In this document: one piece after another, positions 5,341-48,940 of the stretch
Layout: each line of letters begins with the position of its first letter
Position numbering within the stretch: position 1 is the stretch's first letter
NCBI GenBank assembly: GCA_017622925.1
Contig: JAGAQC010000048.1
Location: 1 to 48,940 of the forward strand
Origin: Ruminococcus sp.
Lineage (GTDB): Bacteria; Bacillota; Clostridia; Oscillospirales; Ruminococcaceae
DNA: 48,940 nucleotides
Reading direction: 5' to 3'
Notes under the pieces: generated by a model
What the model saw: only the letters and a program-made list of their open reading frames with translations
Database searches by the model: none
Told to the model about the DNA's origin: nothing
Position numbers and translations under genes: made by a program

Positions 5341-5567
5341 GATTATCAACTTAAGCAGGGGGACGCTGTCCCCCTGCACCCCCTGCCAAAGGGGTGACCC
5401 CTTTGGAATCTCTGTTGTCGTAAATTTTCCTGTATAAAGCCACCTTATTTATTTATAATTTTAAGTTCATTTGGCTTTATACAGGAAAATTTACGATATA
5501 GACTCCGAAAAGTTACCTCTTTGACAAGAATAAAGGGTAACAAAATCCTCTTAAGTTGTAGATAATG
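5341..5567. mobile_element. MITE-like stacked-hairpin element, family 1, copy A
   Basis: About 220 bp, no gene. Ends carry inverted CAACTTAAG (5347-5355 and 5550-5558). Inside are a GCAGGGGGAC/GTCCCCCTGC hairpin, a CCAAAGGGG/CCCCTTTGG hairpin and a perfect 24-bp stem (5419-5442 with 5472-5495). Copy B (6944-7171) is the same element inverted; copy C lies at 27233-27425. The 10-mer TAATGATTAT occurs at 5337-5346 and 5563-5572, like a target duplication, and includes the stop codon of the DUF4956 gene. Because that 10-mer is nearly palindromic it can instead be read as an extended terminal inverted repeat, as in copy B. No transposase is nearby; any movement would need one elsewhere. Confidence 0.82.
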
Positions 5568-5588
5568 ATTATAGAAAGGGAATAAAAT

Positions 5589-6929
5589 ATGAATTACAGA
5601 AAAATTATTGCATGGGCGGCGGTTTTTACCATGCTTGCGGCGTTTACAGGCTGCGGAAAAGAAGAAGCTTCAGAAACTTTTGAGGATATTACGAGCGTTT
5701 CCGTGGTTTCCGATCAGGAGGAGACTTCCGCATCGGATGAAACGTCCGAAATCACAAAAACCGCTGAAACGGAGACTAAAAAATCCTCCGAAACTTCAAA
5801 AGCAGTCAAAACAGAGGTAAAGTCCGATAAAAAAACTACTGCGAAAGCGGAGGTCACATCAGTTGTCAAGACTTCAAATTCAGGAGAATCTTCATCATCA
5901 GGCGGTTCGGAAAATTCGGGGAACAACGGCAGCCCTGAAAATAATCAGCAGCCTGTTTCTACGAAATCACCCGAAAGTCCGCAGATCCCCACGGTGACAA
6001 TGACTGACGTACCCGAAAAAACATACGATGCCGAGATAACCTTTGACGAAACCGTTTCCGCAGACGGAGTTAATGTGCGGACGGACGGTTCTGTTGTAAG
6101 TATTACGGCAGGCGGCGATTACATAGTCAGAGGAAGCTCCTCGAACGGTCAGATATACGTTGATACGGCTGCCGAGGAAAAGGTCGAGATCACCCTTGAT
6201 AACATTGATATTTCCTATGGGGAAGGTCCTGCGATCCTCATAAATGAAGCTAAAAAATGTGTGATAAAGCTTGCGGACGGCAGCGTGAATTATCTCAGGG
6301 ACGGCGGAAACGACAAGGTAAACGACGGCGTAATTTTCTCAAACGATACGCTCAGGATAAAAGGCGGCGGCTATCTGGAGATCAACGCAGGCAATGCTCA
6401 CGGAATAGCAAGCGATGACGATGTTATTATCGAAAGCGGAGAGTACCTTATAAACTCAATAAAATCGGGAATTTTTGCTCATGACGATATTACGGTCAAC
6501 GGCGGTGAGCTTACGATCTTCGGCGGAACTAACGGTATAAAATCCAAGGGGACAGTCAATATAAACGGCGGTACTTCGCTGGTATGCGGCGGCGTAAAGG
6601 AGGAGAAAAGCTCTGTATATGCGGCGGCAGGACTGTATTACAGGGGCGGCTGTTTGTATGCGGCAGGCAACGCAGTAACTCCTCCGTCTGAAACTCCTGA
6701 TCCTTATATTGTGGTGAACTGGACGAAAGGAGCTGCGGCGGACAGCACTGTCGGATTTGTACTCGGAGGGACGGAGTTTGCTTCTCTTACGCCGAAAAAT
6801 CCGTTTAAGTGCGTTATGATGCTTGCTCCCGATATTCTTATAGGAGATGTTTTTACGCCTGTGCTTGACGGTGAGGGACAGGGCGATTTTACGGTTGAGG
6901 AAGGACAGAACCTATACGTTATAGATTAG
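5589..6929 (+). CDS. Carbohydrate-binding domain lipoprotein (DUF4353-like)
   Basis: A 446-residue surface lipoprotein. The signal peptide ends in a lipobox AAFTGC with lipidated Cys22. A disordered Ser/Thr/Glu/Lys-rich spacer (about 24-135) is followed by a parallel beta-helix-like domain with repeated VNGGELTIFGG, INGGTSLVCGG and IKGGGYLEINAG strands, typical of the carbohydrate-binding domain (DUF4353) family. This family often follows VTC and DUF4956 genes. The start at 5589 is set by GAAAGGG. Without element A the gap to the DUF4956 stop would be about 23 nt, so it probably belonged to that operon and may now depend on read-through. Exact ligand unknown. Confidence 0.85.
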   Translation: MNYRKIIAWAAVFTMLAAFTGCGKEEASETFEDITSVSVVSDQEETSASDETSEITKTAETETKKSSETSKAVKTEVKSDKKTTAKAEVTSVVKTSNSGESSSSGGSENSGNNGSPENNQQPVSTKSPESPQIPTVTMTDVPEKTYDAEITFDETVSADGVNVRTDGSVVSITAGGDYIVRGSSSNGQIYVDTAAEEKVEITLDNIDISYGEGPAILINEAKKCVIKLADGSVNYLRDGGNDKVNDGVIFSNDTLRIKGGGYLEINAGNAHGIASDDDVIIESGEYLINSIKSGIFAHDDITVNGGELTIFGGTNGIKSKGTVNINGGTSLVCGGVKEEKSSVYAAAGLYYRGGCLYAAGNAVTPPSETPDPYIVVNWTKGAAADSTVGFVLGGTEFASLTPKNPFKCVMMLAPDILIGDVFTPVLDGEGQGDFTVEEGQNLYVID

Positions 6930-6943
6930 ACCTGTTAAATAAT

Positions 6944-7171
6944 CACTATCCACAACTTAAGCGGATATTGTTTTTCTGCATTTCTTGCCTGAGAGGTAGC
7001 TTTTTGGAGCCTATATCGTAAATTCTCCTGCATAAAGCCATAAAAATATAGATTCGGATTTATATAGCAGGCTTTATGCAGGATAATTTACGACAACAGA
7101 GATTCCAAAGGGGTCACCCCTTTGGCAGGGGGTGTGGGGGACAGCGTCCCCCACTTAAGTTGTAGACAGTG
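6944..7171. mobile_element. MITE-like stacked-hairpin element, family 1, copy B (inverted to A)
   Basis: About 228 bp. Terminal inverted repeats CACTATCCACAACTTAAG (6944-6961) and CTTAAGTTGTAGACAGTG (7154-7171) match at 16 of 18 positions. The internal 23-bp stem (7017-7039 with 7070-7092) has one mismatch; relative to copy A one stem pair changes from A-T to G-C, keeping pairing. The GC hairpin at 7134-7155 also differs from copy A by paired bases. Copies A and B flank the lipoprotein gene in opposite orientation. Confidence 0.82.
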
Positions 7172-7270
7172 GCTCAATAATTGCGTTCGCAGCACGAATT
7201 TATGTGCTGCGATTTTTTGTATTAGGTCTCCACGGAAACTTTGAAAACAATATTTCAGATTTGTTTTTTT

Positions 7271-23980: not shown

Positions 23981-24034
23981 TTAATTGATGTATTCATTTT
24001 TTCTTAAAATTTATCCCCTAAGAGGTGCATATAC

Positions 24035-26203
24035 ATGAAAGTAACTAAAATAGTAAGAGTTCGCAAAGCCTCTAAAGAGAATTTTGCTGCTGAGGAAAAG
24101 GATATAAAAATTTCTTCTGCGCTTGAAAACGCTGATGTAAAAAAGTTTGCTGAAAAGGCAGAGGAGAAGCCAAAGGAAACTCCAAAACCCGAGAAAAAGG
24201 CGGAGGAGAAGTCTAAGGAATCCCCGAAGTCCGAGAAAAAGGCAGAGGAGAAGCCAAAGGAAACTCCAAAGCCTGAGAAAAAAGCGGAGGAGAAGCCAAA
24301 ACAAGCTCCAAAACCCGAGAAAAAGGCAGAGGAGAAGTCTAAGGAATCCCCGAAGTCCGAGAAAAAGGCGGAGGAAAAGCTCAAGGAAACTCCAAAGCCC
24401 GAGAAAAAGGCTGAGGAGAAGCCAAAGGAAACTCCAAAACCCGAGAAAAAGGCGGAGGAGAAGTCTAAGGAATCCCCGAAGTCCGAGAAAAAGGCTGAGG
24501 AGAAGCCAAAGGAAACTCCAAAACCCGAGAAAAAGGCGGAGGAGAAGCCAAAGGAAACTCCAAAGCCCGAGAAAAAGACGGAGGAAAAGCCAAAGGAAAA
24601 TCCAAAGCCCGAGAAGAAAGCGGAGGAAAAGCCCAAGGAAAATCCAAAGCCCGAGAAGAAAGCGGAGGAAAAGCCAAAGCAAGCTCCCAAATTTGAGAAA
24701 AAGGCTGAGGAGAAGCCAAAGGAAACTCCAAAACCCGAGAAAAAAGCGGAGGAAAAGCCAAAGGAAAATCCAAAGCCCGAGAAAAAAGCTGAGGAGAAGC
24801 CAAAGGAAACTCCCAAATTTGAGAAAAAGGCAGAGGAGAAGCCAAAGGAATCCCCAAAACCCGAGAAAAAGGCAGAGGAGAAGCCAAAGGAAACTCCCAA
24901 ACCCGAGAAAAAAGCAGAGGAGAAGCCAAAGGAAACTTCCAAACCCGAGGAAAAAGCTGAGGAAAAGCCAAAGGAAACTCCCAAACCCGAGAAAAAAGCA
25001 GAGGAAAAGCCGAAAACAATTTTTATTGAAGAAATAAATGTAAAAAAATCGTCGGACGGCGTTGAAAAGAGTTCTCTTTCGGCTGCGCAAGAAACAGCAA
25101 AGTCGGAGAAGATCCCCCAAAAAAAGCCGAACAATGTTCAGGTGATCTCAGACGCTCCAAAGCCTGCAAAAGAAAAGAAAAAAGAAATGCCCGAGATCGT
25201 TCTTTCGCGTGAGGAATTCAGAGAGGTCAACGAGACTGCTCAGCCAAAGAAAGCCGAACCCGAAGCGGTGAAAAAAACGACAACTAAGGCAATGTCCCGT
25301 GAAAAAATCAACGAATTATACAGTGACAAGGACATCGAGCAGGTCGAAACTGTTGAAATCGACGATGTGAACAATATGGCTCTTGGTAAAAACGGAACTT
25401 TGCTTATAAAATATATTGGCACTAACGAAGTAATACATATCCCCGATACGATAACTTCTATAGGAAAATACGCATTCAGAGGCAATAAATCGGCAAAAAC
25501 GATTATTATGTCCGACAGCGTCAAGACTGTTGACCGCTTTGCTTTCGCCCACTGCGTTAATTTGGAAGAAATTGTTTTTTCGAGAAATTTGGAGTCTATC
25601 GGCGAAAACGCTTTCCTGAAATGTCAGCGGCTTAAAGAGCTTGATCTCCCTAATTCTCTTAAAAATATCGGCAAGGGAGCTTTTGGCAGATGCAGCTCCA
25701 TACGCAAGCTGATTTTCCCGGGACAAATAAAAAGAATAAACGATTTAAGCTTTTTTGCCTGCCGCAATCTTAATCGGGTAATTATTTCTCATTCTGTGGA
25801 AGCTATCGGAAATGCGGCGTTTTCCGAATGCTACGGCTTAAAGAAGATCGTTATTGCAGATTCGGTCACAAGTATCGGCGAAAGCGCATTTTCGTGGTGT
25901 AGGTCGCTGGAGGAGATCACGATACCCTCGTCTGTAAAAACTGTGGGCAGTTGGGCATTTTACGGCTGTACCAAGCTTACGGACGTTCGTATCAGCGTTC
26001 AGACAAAAGATGTCCGCGACGACGCATTCTGCGGCTGCGAGAATATTTATAACGTAAAAATCGCTGAGTTCGAGGGCGTTGACTACAATCAGACAACGGT
26101 AAAAAAAGGGCAGAAGCTTATTCTGCGTATTTTGAAGCAGGTCAACCGCAAAAAGGCGGAACGCTACGCCCGTGAGCATAATATCAGCACCATGTTTATG
26201 TAA
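24035..26203 (+). CDS. Lys/Glu/Pro tandem-repeat protein with BspA-type leucine-rich repeats
   Basis: A 722-residue protein with no signal peptide or membrane segment. Residues 41-320 are 20 tandem copies of a 14-residue unit, consensus KAEEKPKETPKPEK, then a partial copy. Variants are SKESPKSEK, KQAPKPEK, KENPKPEK and KPKFEK. A charged spacer (about 330-460) leads to seven to eight LRR_5/BspA-like repeats (SVTSIGESAFSWCRSLEEI type), residues about 465-690. LRR_5 proteins are usually secreted; this one appears cytoplasmic unless exported by a non-classical route. AGGTG precedes the ATG. The extended Pro/Lys/Glu region probably acts as a stiff spacer. Function unknown. Confidence 0.85.
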   Translation: MKVTKIVRVRKASKENFAAEEKDIKISSALENADVKKFAEKAEEKPKETPKPEKKAEEKSKESPKSEKKAEEKPKETPKPEKKAEEKPKQAPKPEKKAEEKSKESPKSEKKAEEKLKETPKPEKKAEEKPKETPKPEKKAEEKSKESPKSEKKAEEKPKETPKPEKKAEEKPKETPKPEKKTEEKPKENPKPEKKAEEKPKENPKPEKKAEEKPKQAPKFEKKAEEKPKETPKPEKKAEEKPKENPKPEKKAEEKPKETPKFEKKAEEKPKESPKPEKKAEEKPKETPKPEKKAEEKPKETSKPEEKAEEKPKETPKPEKKAEEKPKTIFIEEINVKKSSDGVEKSSLSAAQETAKSEKIPQKKPNNVQVISDAPKPAKEKKKEMPEIVLSREEFREVNETAQPKKAEPEAVKKTTTKAMSREKINELYSDKDIEQVETVEIDDVNNMALGKNGTLLIKYIGTNEVIHIPDTITSIGKYAFRGNKSAKTIIMSDSVKTVDRFAFAHCVNLEEIVFSRNLESIGENAFLKCQRLKELDLPNSLKNIGKGAFGRCSSIRKLIFPGQIKRINDLSFFACRNLNRVIISHSVEAIGNAAFSECYGLKKIVIADSVTSIGESAFSWCRSLEEITIPSSVKTVGSWAFYGCTKLTDVRISVQTKDVRDDAFCGCENIYNVKIAEFEGVDYNQTTVKKGQKLILRILKQVNRKKAERYAREHNISTMFM
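24155..25015 (+). repeat. 42-bp coding tandem repeat (about 20.5 copies)
   Basis: In-frame 42-bp units encoding KAEEKPKETPKPEK. Units vary at synonymous and a few non-synonymous positions; three SKESPKSEK variant units (2, 5 and 8) recur with a three-unit period, showing duplication of blocks larger than one unit. Length should vary by slippage or recombination. Confidence 0.97.
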
Positions 26204-27149: not shown

Positions 27150-27178
27150 ATTATACTACTTTAATGCGAAAAAGTCAA
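27150..27178 (-). promoter_or_regulatory. Promoter of tyrA
   Basis: TTGACT (27173-27178) and TATAAT (27150-27155) on minus, 17-bp spacer. The transcript would begin in a TAGACCTAAACAGGACTA near-palindrome (27134-27151), which could be an operator. Confidence 0.85.
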
Positions 27179-27232
27179 GTTATTGAAAATCAATTTTAAG
27201 GTTTACAGCAAATTTGTACAGAAGATTTTTGT

Positions 27233-27425
27233 TATCCTTTACTTTCTGTTAAAGAGGGAACTCTTGGTGTCCATTCTCGTGAATTGGGCTGTGAAAATCA
27301 TGGAGACTAACAGTATAGTGTAGATTTTGGGATTTTCACAGCCCAATTCACGACAACAGAGATTCCAAAGGGGTCACCCCTTTGGCAGGGGGTGCAGGGG
27401 GACAGAGTCCCCCTGCTTAAGTTTA
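27233..27425. mobile_element. Stacked-hairpin element, family 1, copy C (one end eroded)
   Basis: About 190 bp in the orientation of copy B. It keeps the GC hairpin (27395-27416), the CCAAAGGGG hairpin (27365-27385) and a perfect 22-bp stem (27278-27299 with 27331-27352). That stem has an unrelated sequence to copies A and B yet is fully complementary. Beyond the stem the homology to copy A resumes (CCCTCTTTAACA-like). CTTAAG remains at 27416-27421; the other terminus is not recognisable. Lies between tyrA and the pseudouridine synthase gene. Confidence 0.8.
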
Positions 27426-27434
27426 TTGTAAAAT

Positions 27435-28379
27435 TTAAAATTGGATCATATATAAATTTTCGGGGGACTTTGGGTGGATATTGCATAGGTATCGGAGCGG
27501 CGAGTTTTCCGGAAAATCAAATTCCAGCTCGTATGCGCAAAGCTGCTGACGGAAAATGCCGAAGCGTTTGTTTGCGGCGATATTTCCGTATTTTCCGTCC
27601 CCGAGGATAGGCAGACCGATATGCGCAAGGTGCGCCCTTATCTGGTGAGTACGTCCCGTATAAAGCCGTATTTCAAGCAGCGAAAGTCCTGATTTTTCGG
27701 CTAAAAGTCTGTAGCCTGTGCGTATCTGTCTGAATCCTTCTTTCGGTTCGCTGCTTATACGCACCATATTTCTGCCCTCGTCCCTGAAATGGTAGGCGGT
27801 GAGTATGTCCTCAGACTTTGCAGGCTTTCCGACAACGACACAGCGGTAAATTTTATGTATGCAGCCCGACTTGATGCCCTCGTTCAGTTCCCGAAGCGAA
27901 GCCGCATTTTTTGCCGCAGTCACAAGTCCCGAGGTATTCCTGTCAAGCCTGCTGCAAAGAGCAGGGGAGAAAGTATTCTCGGTATCGGGAGCGTATTCCC
28001 CCTTACGGTAAAGATAAAGCTTTATTCGGTTTATCAGAGTATCGGGGTTATTTTCGCCGTTGCTGTGCGAGTCAAGTCCCACAGGCTTGAACACGATAAT
28101 GATGTTGTCGTCCTCATAGATCACGTTCAGCTCCGTATCGGCATTGATAAAGCTCATGTCGTGCCGCTTAGGAGCTGAAACATCGTCCTTGACGTACACA
28201 CGGACAATATCCCCCTCGGCAAGCTTTGCGGAAATTTCACAGCGTTTGCCGTTTATTTTTATATCTTTTTTGCGGATAAGTCGGTACATCATGCTTTTGG
28301 GAAGCTCGGGCATAGCCTTTTGCAGGAATTTATCTATTCTCTGACCGCTGTCATTCTGTGTGATATTAAATTCTTTCAT
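27435..28379 (-). CDS. RluA-family pseudouridine synthase
   Basis: A 314-residue RNA-modifying enzyme. An N-terminal S4 RNA-binding domain (about 13-70) precedes the catalytic domain with the RluA motif CSRLDRNTSGLV holding the catalytic Asp, plus GRTHQIRAHLAHIGLPILGD. Target RNA (23S rRNA or tRNA) cannot be chosen from sequence; RluD/RluC-like is most likely. GAGGTG precedes the ATG. Hairpin element C follows its stop. Confidence 0.93.
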   Translation of the reverse strand: MKEFNITQNDSGQRIDKFLQKAMPELPKSMMYRLIRKKDIKINGKRCEISAKLAEGDIVRVYVKDDVSAPKRHDMSFINADTELNVIYEDDNIIIVFKPVGLDSHSNGENNPDTLINRIKLYLYRKGEYAPDTENTFSPALCSRLDRNTSGLVTAAKNAASLRELNEGIKSGCIHKIYRCVVVGKPAKSEDILTAYHFRDEGRNMVRISSEPKEGFRQIRTGYRLLAEKSGLSLLEIRLYTGRTHQIRAHLAHIGLPILGDGKYGNIAANKRFGIFRQQLCAYELEFDFPENSPLRYLCNIHPKSPENLYMIQF

Positions 28380-37536: not shown

Positions 37537-37553
37537 ACAGATTATGACAGCAT

Positions 37554-37740
37554 AAGGGAACGCCCTCTCTTGCAGGGCGTTCCCTCTTTCAAAACAGTCC
37601 ACAGGACTGTTTTGAAATTCACCCTTTGCGGAGCGCTTAAACGCTATGCAGGGCTTTGCCCCGCACCCCACCAGAGGCGCTGCCTCTGGACTCCGCCAAA
37701 GGGACACCGTCCCTTTGGAATCCCAATGTTAGTTCGCTTT
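37554..37740 (-). repeat. Stacked-hairpin repeat, family 2, copy 2 (inverted)
   Basis: The reverse complement of 21-207 with about 90 percent identity by eye. TGACAG occurs on both sides (37545-37550 and 37746-37751), which could be a short target duplication. The TTCAAAACAGTCC/GGACTGTTTTGAA stem keeps pairing despite two changes relative to copy 1. Placed between addA and a terminator. Confidence 0.88.
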
Positions 37741-37754
37741 AGTTGTGACAGATA

Positions 37755-48802: not shown

Positions 48803-48896
48803 ACGTTTCGGGAAATTTATTTTTTCCAAAGAATTTTATTTGTTCATTATCGGCTATATTGAACGGTATATGTATGTGTAAAGTTTTAGTAGGCAG

Positions 48897-48940
48897 ATGA
48901 ATTTTGTAGGGGACGGCGCCCTCGACGTCCCGTTTTCGGA
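48897..48940 (+). repeat. Family 3 repeat, truncated by the window end
   Basis: The first 24 bases (48897-48920) are the exact reverse complement of 308-331; the following GGACGTCCCG-like tail suggests a further palindrome. Cut off by the window edge. Confidence 0.7.

Follow-up and report, generated by a model that had tools for sequence, protein, structure and literature searches.

A high-copy MITE of Ruminococcus whose long hairpin stem changes from copy to copy while its arms stay matched

Introduction

BOX, RUP and SPRITE of Streptococcus pneumoniae are small, high-copy, structured intergenic repeats. The Ruminococcus repeat described here is like them in its small size, high copy number, structure and intergenic sites. 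BOX and SPRITE are also named in a paper on prokaryotic MITEs, and MITEs and their folded transcripts are already known from that source (PMC10969869). According to the passages of that paper covered here, prokaryotic MITEs have terminal inverted repeats, target duplications, intergenic sites and a stable predicted fold, lack an internal transposase gene and have an IS with the same ends, all of which our repeat shares, its complete IS having been seen in a congener. Unlike those MITEs, it contains two hairpins (P1 and P2) that are found with the same sequence in several genera and inside elements with different types of ends, and a third (P3) that is lettered differently in almost every copy and yet stays paired. 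Such features are absent from the passages covered, and the string 'compensat' has 0 occurrences in the text of that paper.

How a long stem can stay paired when both of its arms change is a question of long standing, and template switching as a keeper of hairpins is already known (PMC8794818). The hairpins in the covered parts of that paper resemble ours in having paired changes of several bases that make the stem perfect again, which are explained there by DNA replication; they differ in that they were shown for RNA genes and in that some have inverted loops, against 0 of 122 loops here. In the part of the open-licence literature that was covered, nothing was found on the present repeat or its kind. 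We regard the repeat as a variant on the known MITE theme.

Results

Three copies of the repeat lie in the window, the whole stretch of 48,940 nucleotides analysed from Ruminococcus sp. (contig JAGAQC010000048.1, assembly GCA_017622925.1). Copies A, B (inverted) and C were found where the original prediction had placed them. The bounds it gave for copy C (27233-27425) were too short, as outer ends of a different type extend to about 27188 and 27446. The copies contain no ORF of at least 80 aa, and thus no transposase gene. The features are as follows.

5341..5567, + strand: copy A, whole element, type I ends
5347..5355, + strand: copy A, left terminal inverted repeat, inner part CAACTTAAG; the outer part is diverged and 2 nt shorter than CACTATCCACAACTTAAG
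5355..5377, + strand: copy A, P1 hairpin, GCAGGGGGAC-GCT-GTCCCCCTGC
5386..5406, + strand: copy A, P2 hairpin, CCAAAGGGGTGACCCCTTTGG
5419..5442, + strand: copy A, P3 long stem, 5' arm
5472..5495, + strand: copy A, P3 long stem, 3' arm
5512..5541, + strand: copy A, P4, a weaker hairpin, GTTACCTCTTT...AAAGGGTAAC
5550..5567, - strand: copy A, right terminal inverted repeat, CTTAAGTTGTAGATAATG, compared with the type I end pattern by eye
6944..7171, - strand: copy B, whole element, with two 18-bp type I ends (6944-6961 and 7154-7171) that match the pattern exactly
7070..7092, - strand: copy B, P3, 5' arm
7017..7039, - strand: copy B, P3, 3' arm
7105..7125, - strand: copy B, P2
6934..6943, no strand: copy B, degenerate 10-bp target duplication, GTTAAATAAT against GCTCAATAAT at 7172-7181, 8 of 10 positions equal by eye; an exact-match duplication test found none for this copy
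27188..27446, - strand: copy C, whole element, type II ends, outer bounds approximate and set by eye
27188..27212, + strand: copy C, type II terminal inverted repeat, AATCAATTTTAAGGTTTACAGCAAA
27394..27416, - strand: copy C, P1
27365..27385, - strand: copy C, P2
27331..27352, - strand: copy C, P3, 5' arm
27278..27299, - strand: copy C, P3, 3' arm

Pairing of the central stem, P3, was as predicted, with 24 of 24 positions paired in A, 22 of 23 in B (one A.G) and 22 of 22 in C. The stem of copy C had been called wholly different from that of A. This did not hold: 16 of the 23 positions of the 5' arm equal those of A, an identity reached by 0 of 20,000 shuffles, and the remaining 7 form pairs in A as well as in C. 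The C stem is therefore homologous to the A stem and differs from it by paired substitutions, with no new sequence. Of the smaller differences between A and B, all expected to be paired changes, those at the base of P1 and at stem position 14 (numbering from 0) are indeed paired; position 8 of B is the unpaired A.G. None of 200 shuffles folded as well as copy A folded as DNA (z = -10.67), and the same was found for copy C folded as RNA (z = -9.15). Chance folding as the source of the stems was ruled out by these shuffles and by the covariation shuffles given below.

Instead of the three copies first described, a P2 anchor with at most 3 mismatches was found at 129 places in the 2.5-Mb genome to which the window belongs (own genome, G000), 64 forward and 65 reverse, while the reversed control pattern gave 0. 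Two of 131 copies, truncated at contig ends, had been dropped before the counts. Among the 125 genomes of the genus the same anchor was present in two, the own genome and that of a sister species (G123, 54 places), both of which are draft assemblies. The exact anchor was matched by 19 stretches, all from the assembly of uncultured Ruminococcus sp. Lapin-033 bin28, in a search from which own-genome records were possibly excluded. A sequence-only pattern of P1 and P2 was present in 14 of the 125 genomes including the own (control 0), with 92 places in the own genome, 44 in G123, 25 in G051, 15 in G124, 13 each in G004 and G119, 11 in G055, and 1 to 7 in each of seven further congeners. In a family sample of 396 genomes it was found in three, namely the own genome and two of other genera (47 and 8 places). 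This pattern was preferred to a covariance-model tally (81 of 125 genomes). Since the model reaches about 50 bits on L001 and L031 even when they are read from the opposite strand, its weak hits may be mere stacks of hairpins, and the tally is not used as a number of genomes.

Copies A and C were also compared by BLAST with the own genome, and among the best 40 candidates scored per search the places mostly coincided with other copies; a host-gene origin of the stems was set aside on this result. A blastn search of the phage and plasmid collections gave no match for copy A, and a phage or plasmid element was rejected on that basis.

The core formed by P1, P2 and P3 was aligned for 61 copies, with 98.0% of cells paired. 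The original prediction would have been contradicted by a lack of further copies or by stems that do not stay complementary; besides the 129 places, we found a covariation score of 0.188, compared with 0.066 for shuffles, and 0 of 500 shuffles reached it. All 9 pairs of P2 are invariant in the alignment and the 7 inner pairs of P1 are without any paired change, P1 and P2 being constrained in sequence as well as structure. In P3, 10 of 16 pairs changed on both sides, which bears out the predicted preservation of structure under changing sequence. The two main stem families are Watson-Crick paired in 1143 of 1196 cells (52 copies) and 1451 of 1540 cells (70 copies).

The P3 stem was also looked for in congeners, at 75 places of which 16 were picked by the model and 59 by P1-P2 sequence alone. 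The stem finder required at least 15 bp with one mismatch at most, and rows without a readable P2 were scored as misses; one extra fetch, L369, duplicates L315. A stem of at least 15 bp was found at 56 of the 75 places, all in seven congeners (56 of the 63 places there), and 54 of these 56 stems are different as extracted. For the loci picked by P1-P2, six congeners had the stem in 41 of 48, at a nearly fixed position (G051 15/19, G004 9/10, G119 11/11, G081 5/6, G042 1/1, G031 0/1), and a stem of this length was present in 0 of 11 such loci in G002, G024, G055 and G124. In the four genomes with at least 6 stem copies, mean identity was 68-79% for the P3 arms and 87-95% for the P2 region. The two other genera contributed four loci, three of which form a hairpin where P3 is expected; an internal loop interrupts one of these hairpins, and another was read by eye. 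The fourth locus is truncated at the end of its contig. Some copies have an extra hairpin inserted in P1, and in L432, from another genus, a similar hairpin lies in P2. The 5' ends starting with TCGTGACATCTCC had been considered as a separate element; this was wrong, since in 24 of 26 copies they are the extra hairpin inside P1, and the remaining two (L112 and L114) are at contig ends, with other sequence at the position of the 5' end.

The commonest ends, type I, are the 18-bp inverted repeat CACTRTCYRCAACTTAAG, which a fuzzy match placed on both sides of 60 of the 129 classified copies. A further 27, copy C included, had type II ends (CACGGAAATCAATTTTTAA...) on both sides. The other 42 copies, many of which resemble diverged forms, were left untyped by the end rules; they have inverted ends of further sequence, some being diverged type I. 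An exact duplication of at least 8 bp flanked 21 of the 60 type I copies, against 0.41 expected from swapped flanks, with 10 bp as the commonest length. For type II copies a target duplication of about 9 bp was indicated by an identity of 0.476 vs 0.284 in 25 of the 27 copies; two had been dropped from the test, and in several of the 25, including copy C, the left end was misplaced by the fuzzy match.

In the sister genome the sites of L005 and L070 are empty, with the target in single copy. The site of L008 is also without the element, with a less clean join. At the site of L059 the type II ends are kept and the core is gone (no P2 or P3), and at that of L012 just one end and P1 remain, P2 and P3 being absent. 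The end CACTRTCYRCAACTTAAG, with at most 1 mismatch, was found in 14 of 125 genomes. The own genome had 74 hits, G123 had 115, and each remaining genome had 1 to 8. One hit each in 22 genomes was also obtained with the reversed control, so that single type I end hits may be due to chance. The 25-nt type II end pattern, with at most 3 mismatches, was found only in the own genome (22) and G123 (5) among the 125; copies L309-L311 of G031 start with outer bases that are similar to type II ends by eye. The same stem families were found with both end types and with different forms of P1, which means that either cores or ends have been exchanged between elements.

Shorter elements with type I ends are present as well, of about 123 bp (L231) and 169 bp (L229, where one end has 2 mismatches). 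Still shorter ones, of about 30 bp, lie at about 1590-1619 of L237 and about 353-382 of L244; they consist of two ends with almost no interior and are extreme internal deletions, and that of L237 has an almost perfect 10-bp duplication (9 of 10). The window has a second structured repeat, whose two inverted copies of 192 nt (15-206 and 37553-37744) are 87% alike and contain the hairpins CCAAAGGGACACCGTCCCTTTGG and CCAGAGGCGCTGCCTCTGG; its look-alikes in L233, L241 and L245 bear type I ends.

The original prediction had suggested a search for a transposase with matching ends, and a gene flanked by CTACAACTTAAG-type ends was found in the congener G078. Here the type I ends enclose a 1.4-kb element with a single 445-aa gene, flanked by the 10-bp duplication GATGCTAAAC (by eye). 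Elements of the IS4 family have target duplications of 9-12 bp, and the 10 bp of G078 fall within this range. The 445-aa protein scored 64.9 bits for the DDE_Tnp_1 domain (PF01609) and 139.2 bits, against a cut-off of 115, for the NCBIfam IS4 model (NF033592). Through this parent IS our repeat shares with the IS4 family the DDE_Tnp_1 domain, the score above the NCBIfam cut-off, the 10-bp duplication and the ends. It is unlike the family in that the repeat lacks a transposase and in that copy C has type II ends and a duplication of about 9 bp, for which no matching IS was identified.

In the own genome, contigs C3, C42, C43 and C52 stop 137-140 nt after the start of an exact type I end. The sequence at these stops resembles the IS of G078, and one of the four contig ends encodes the last 37 aa of the transposase with 73% identity. 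Breaks of this kind would be expected of a multi-copy IS in a draft assembly. This 37-aa C-terminal stretch was the only part of the transposase found in the own draft genome, the draft sister genome G123 gave no match to the G078 transposase, and the complete IS was seen in G078 only. In a further genome, G111, seven contigs (C24, C37, C55, C89, C156, C192 and C207) have a type I end in their first 52 bases, as if the assembly were broken by a multi-copy IS.

The repeat is a high-copy non-autonomous transposable element (MITE) of about 220-275 bp, longer where P1 carries an insert. Based on the shared ends, the 10-bp duplications and the empty sites, it is most likely mobilised by an IS4-family transposase, which would act in trans on the 18-bp ends.

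Neighbouring ORFs were classified with a simple ORF rule for the 70 of 111 copies with enough flank. They were tandem for 48 copies, divergent for 11 and convergent for 10, and one copy had no ORF; this mixed orientation gives no hint that the repeat has a set function at the ends of genes. Copies A and B, in inverted order, bracket a gene with a Cthe_2159 carbohydrate-binding domain. This gene (window 5589-6929) is matched at the same place in five congeners (L204-L208). The G123 stretch L203 is without it and has a single element with a short stem and its own 10-bp duplication, ATTGCAAAAC. A gene with prephenate dehydrogenase domains is preceded by a good promoter match (TTGACT-17-TATAAT), and copy C lies just upstream of that match. 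In nine type II copies (L034, L039, L053, L056, L059, L062, L075, L132 and L173) a GTCAA was seen about 20-25 nt away on the left side, which is TTGAC on the other strand; copy C has its promoter match (window 27150-27178) on the opposite side. It is possible that type II copies insert near promoters.

Terminator-like calls were obtained for P2 of A, B and C and for P1 of C. The totals per region, which include sites outside the element, were 5 vs 2.0 in shuffles and 4 vs 0.6. The tails of these P2 and P1 hairpins are not T runs, so a terminator role, though possible, was not built on. Rfam gave 0 matches above the gathering score in the window, and for 11 loci 20 sub-threshold matches, mostly to microRNA families, with Clostridiales-2 twice at about 20 bits vs 58.6. 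A known Rfam family was rejected accordingly.

The window also contains a tandem array with a 42-nt period (14 codons) at 24027-25166, inside or just ahead of ORF 24035-26203. An inverted 35-nt pair lies at 308-342 and 48886-48920, 94% complementary (GGCGCCGTCCCCTACAAAATTCAT...).

Discussion

The pairing of P3 had been attributed in the original prediction to selection on a folded RNA or single-stranded DNA, or to copying of one arm from the other. Selection on an RNA that runs from P1 to P3 finds no support, and copying between arms is live and favoured. According to the latter reading a change in one P3 arm would be copied to the other by DNA template switching within the palindrome, and cores would be exchanged among dispersed copies, with stems drifting in sequence and complementarity retained. 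In the two main genomes mismatches were A.C in 59 cells vs G.T in 41 (20 vs 12 kinds, p 0.22), so the P1-to-P3 strand gives no indication that G-U pairs are tolerated. Among the kinds of paired change, transitions and transversions numbered 11 each, against 32 and 21 among the mismatches (Fisher p 0.45); these kinds were not counted on a tree and are not independent events. An RNA route via G-U intermediates would favour transitions, and half of the paired kinds (11 of 22) are transversions, outside G-U routes. The lack of a G-U preference on this strand together with the transversions favours arm copying at the DNA level plus exchange between copies, which we hold tentatively, as a little short of an even chance.

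Six copies with both flanks matched in the own and sister species showed 5 paired-to-paired, 2 other two-sided and 9 one-sided changes, which fits in-place arm copying, with or without exchange between copies. The pair L030/L194 was excluded from such same-site pairs, its flanks suggesting by eye two insertions about 8-10 bp apart. In the cleanest pair, L040/L188, both stem changes are one-sided, which counts against arm copying. So does a further result: template switching can invert loops, and in a crude test 0 of 122 loops looked inverted. It may be instead that re-sequencing is only the exchange of whole hairpins by ectopic gene conversion, the arms travelling together in one tract. The pairing of the same stem families with different P1 forms and end types speaks for this, as does L049/L413, where 10 of 31 loop bases differ vs 4-9% in the flanks, so that exchange may explain the paired changes of this pair. 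However, exchange leaves the origin of different stems unexplained, given the 54 of 56 that differ in the seven other genomes, and paired changes are present in L051/L175 and L058/L192 although the flanks match and 28 of 31 loop bases are identical. Exchange as the only process is thus possible and somewhat doubtful. Arm copying, whole-hairpin exchange and RNA from the opposite strand are not exclusive readings.

An RNA of the opposite strand (P3-P2-P1), with compensatory mutations passing through G-U pairs, would be expected to leave A.C mismatches on the strand read here, and inside the stems of the seven other genomes A.C was found 19 times vs G.T 4 times (p 0.003). This excess fits G-U tolerance in such an RNA, or strand-biased mutation. 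It depends on omitting the two outermost pairs, a post hoc choice made with the data in view, since these are the positions where the stem finder uses up the single mismatch it tolerates; when every stem pair was counted A.C was 20 and G.T 22, which lowers this reading. The kinds of mismatch in the two main genomes point in the same direction without being significant, and the P1-P2 sequence is kept in three genera. Against it stand the transversions, which have no G-U intermediate, the lack of a clear orientation constraint relative to neighbouring ORFs in the 70 copies and the lack of Rfam matches at gathering score in the window, and we consider selection on this RNA unlikely. A need for folded DNA, as a cruciform or single-stranded hairpin, in transposition or replication, with selection on active source copies, would agree with the high Watson-Crick fractions of the two main stem families and with the lack of G-U preference in the main genomes. 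Yet the IS of G078 and the elements L231 and L229 have no P1-P2-P3 by eye, which means that type I ends do not require the hairpin stack, and paired changes occur at sites shared with the sister species; this is more unlikely still. High copy number, palindromes and mostly intergenic sites would also suit a REP or BIME-type element, for which the mobilising enzyme is a tyrosine transposase (RAYT, IS200/IS605 type). REP/RAYT elements insert without target duplication. The 10-bp duplications refute this type for the type I copies, and with the inverted terminal repeats and the DDE transposase encoded by the IS with the same ends they make it extremely improbable for the repeat.

As a joint explanation, a MITE with IS4-type ends, mobilised in trans, with P3 subject to arm copying and cores to exchange, is likely. 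A wider reading, which we regard as a real possibility if less than an even one, is that the P1-P2-P3 core, seen in three genera of a single family, is the lasting unit, made of two fixed hairpins and one hypervariable, almost always self-complementary hairpin, and a parasite of several transposases. It would then ride at least two unrelated sets of ends, P3 being rewritten by DNA arm copying.

With more than 100 copies of one stem in one genome, some at matching sites of a sister species, selection on RNA and DNA template switching make different, countable predictions on these copies. If arm copying is true, it bears on covariation-based RNA discovery, as covariation in mobile repeats would be unsafe as evidence of a functional RNA. 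One core behind different transposon ends would be an unusual passenger that switches carriers.
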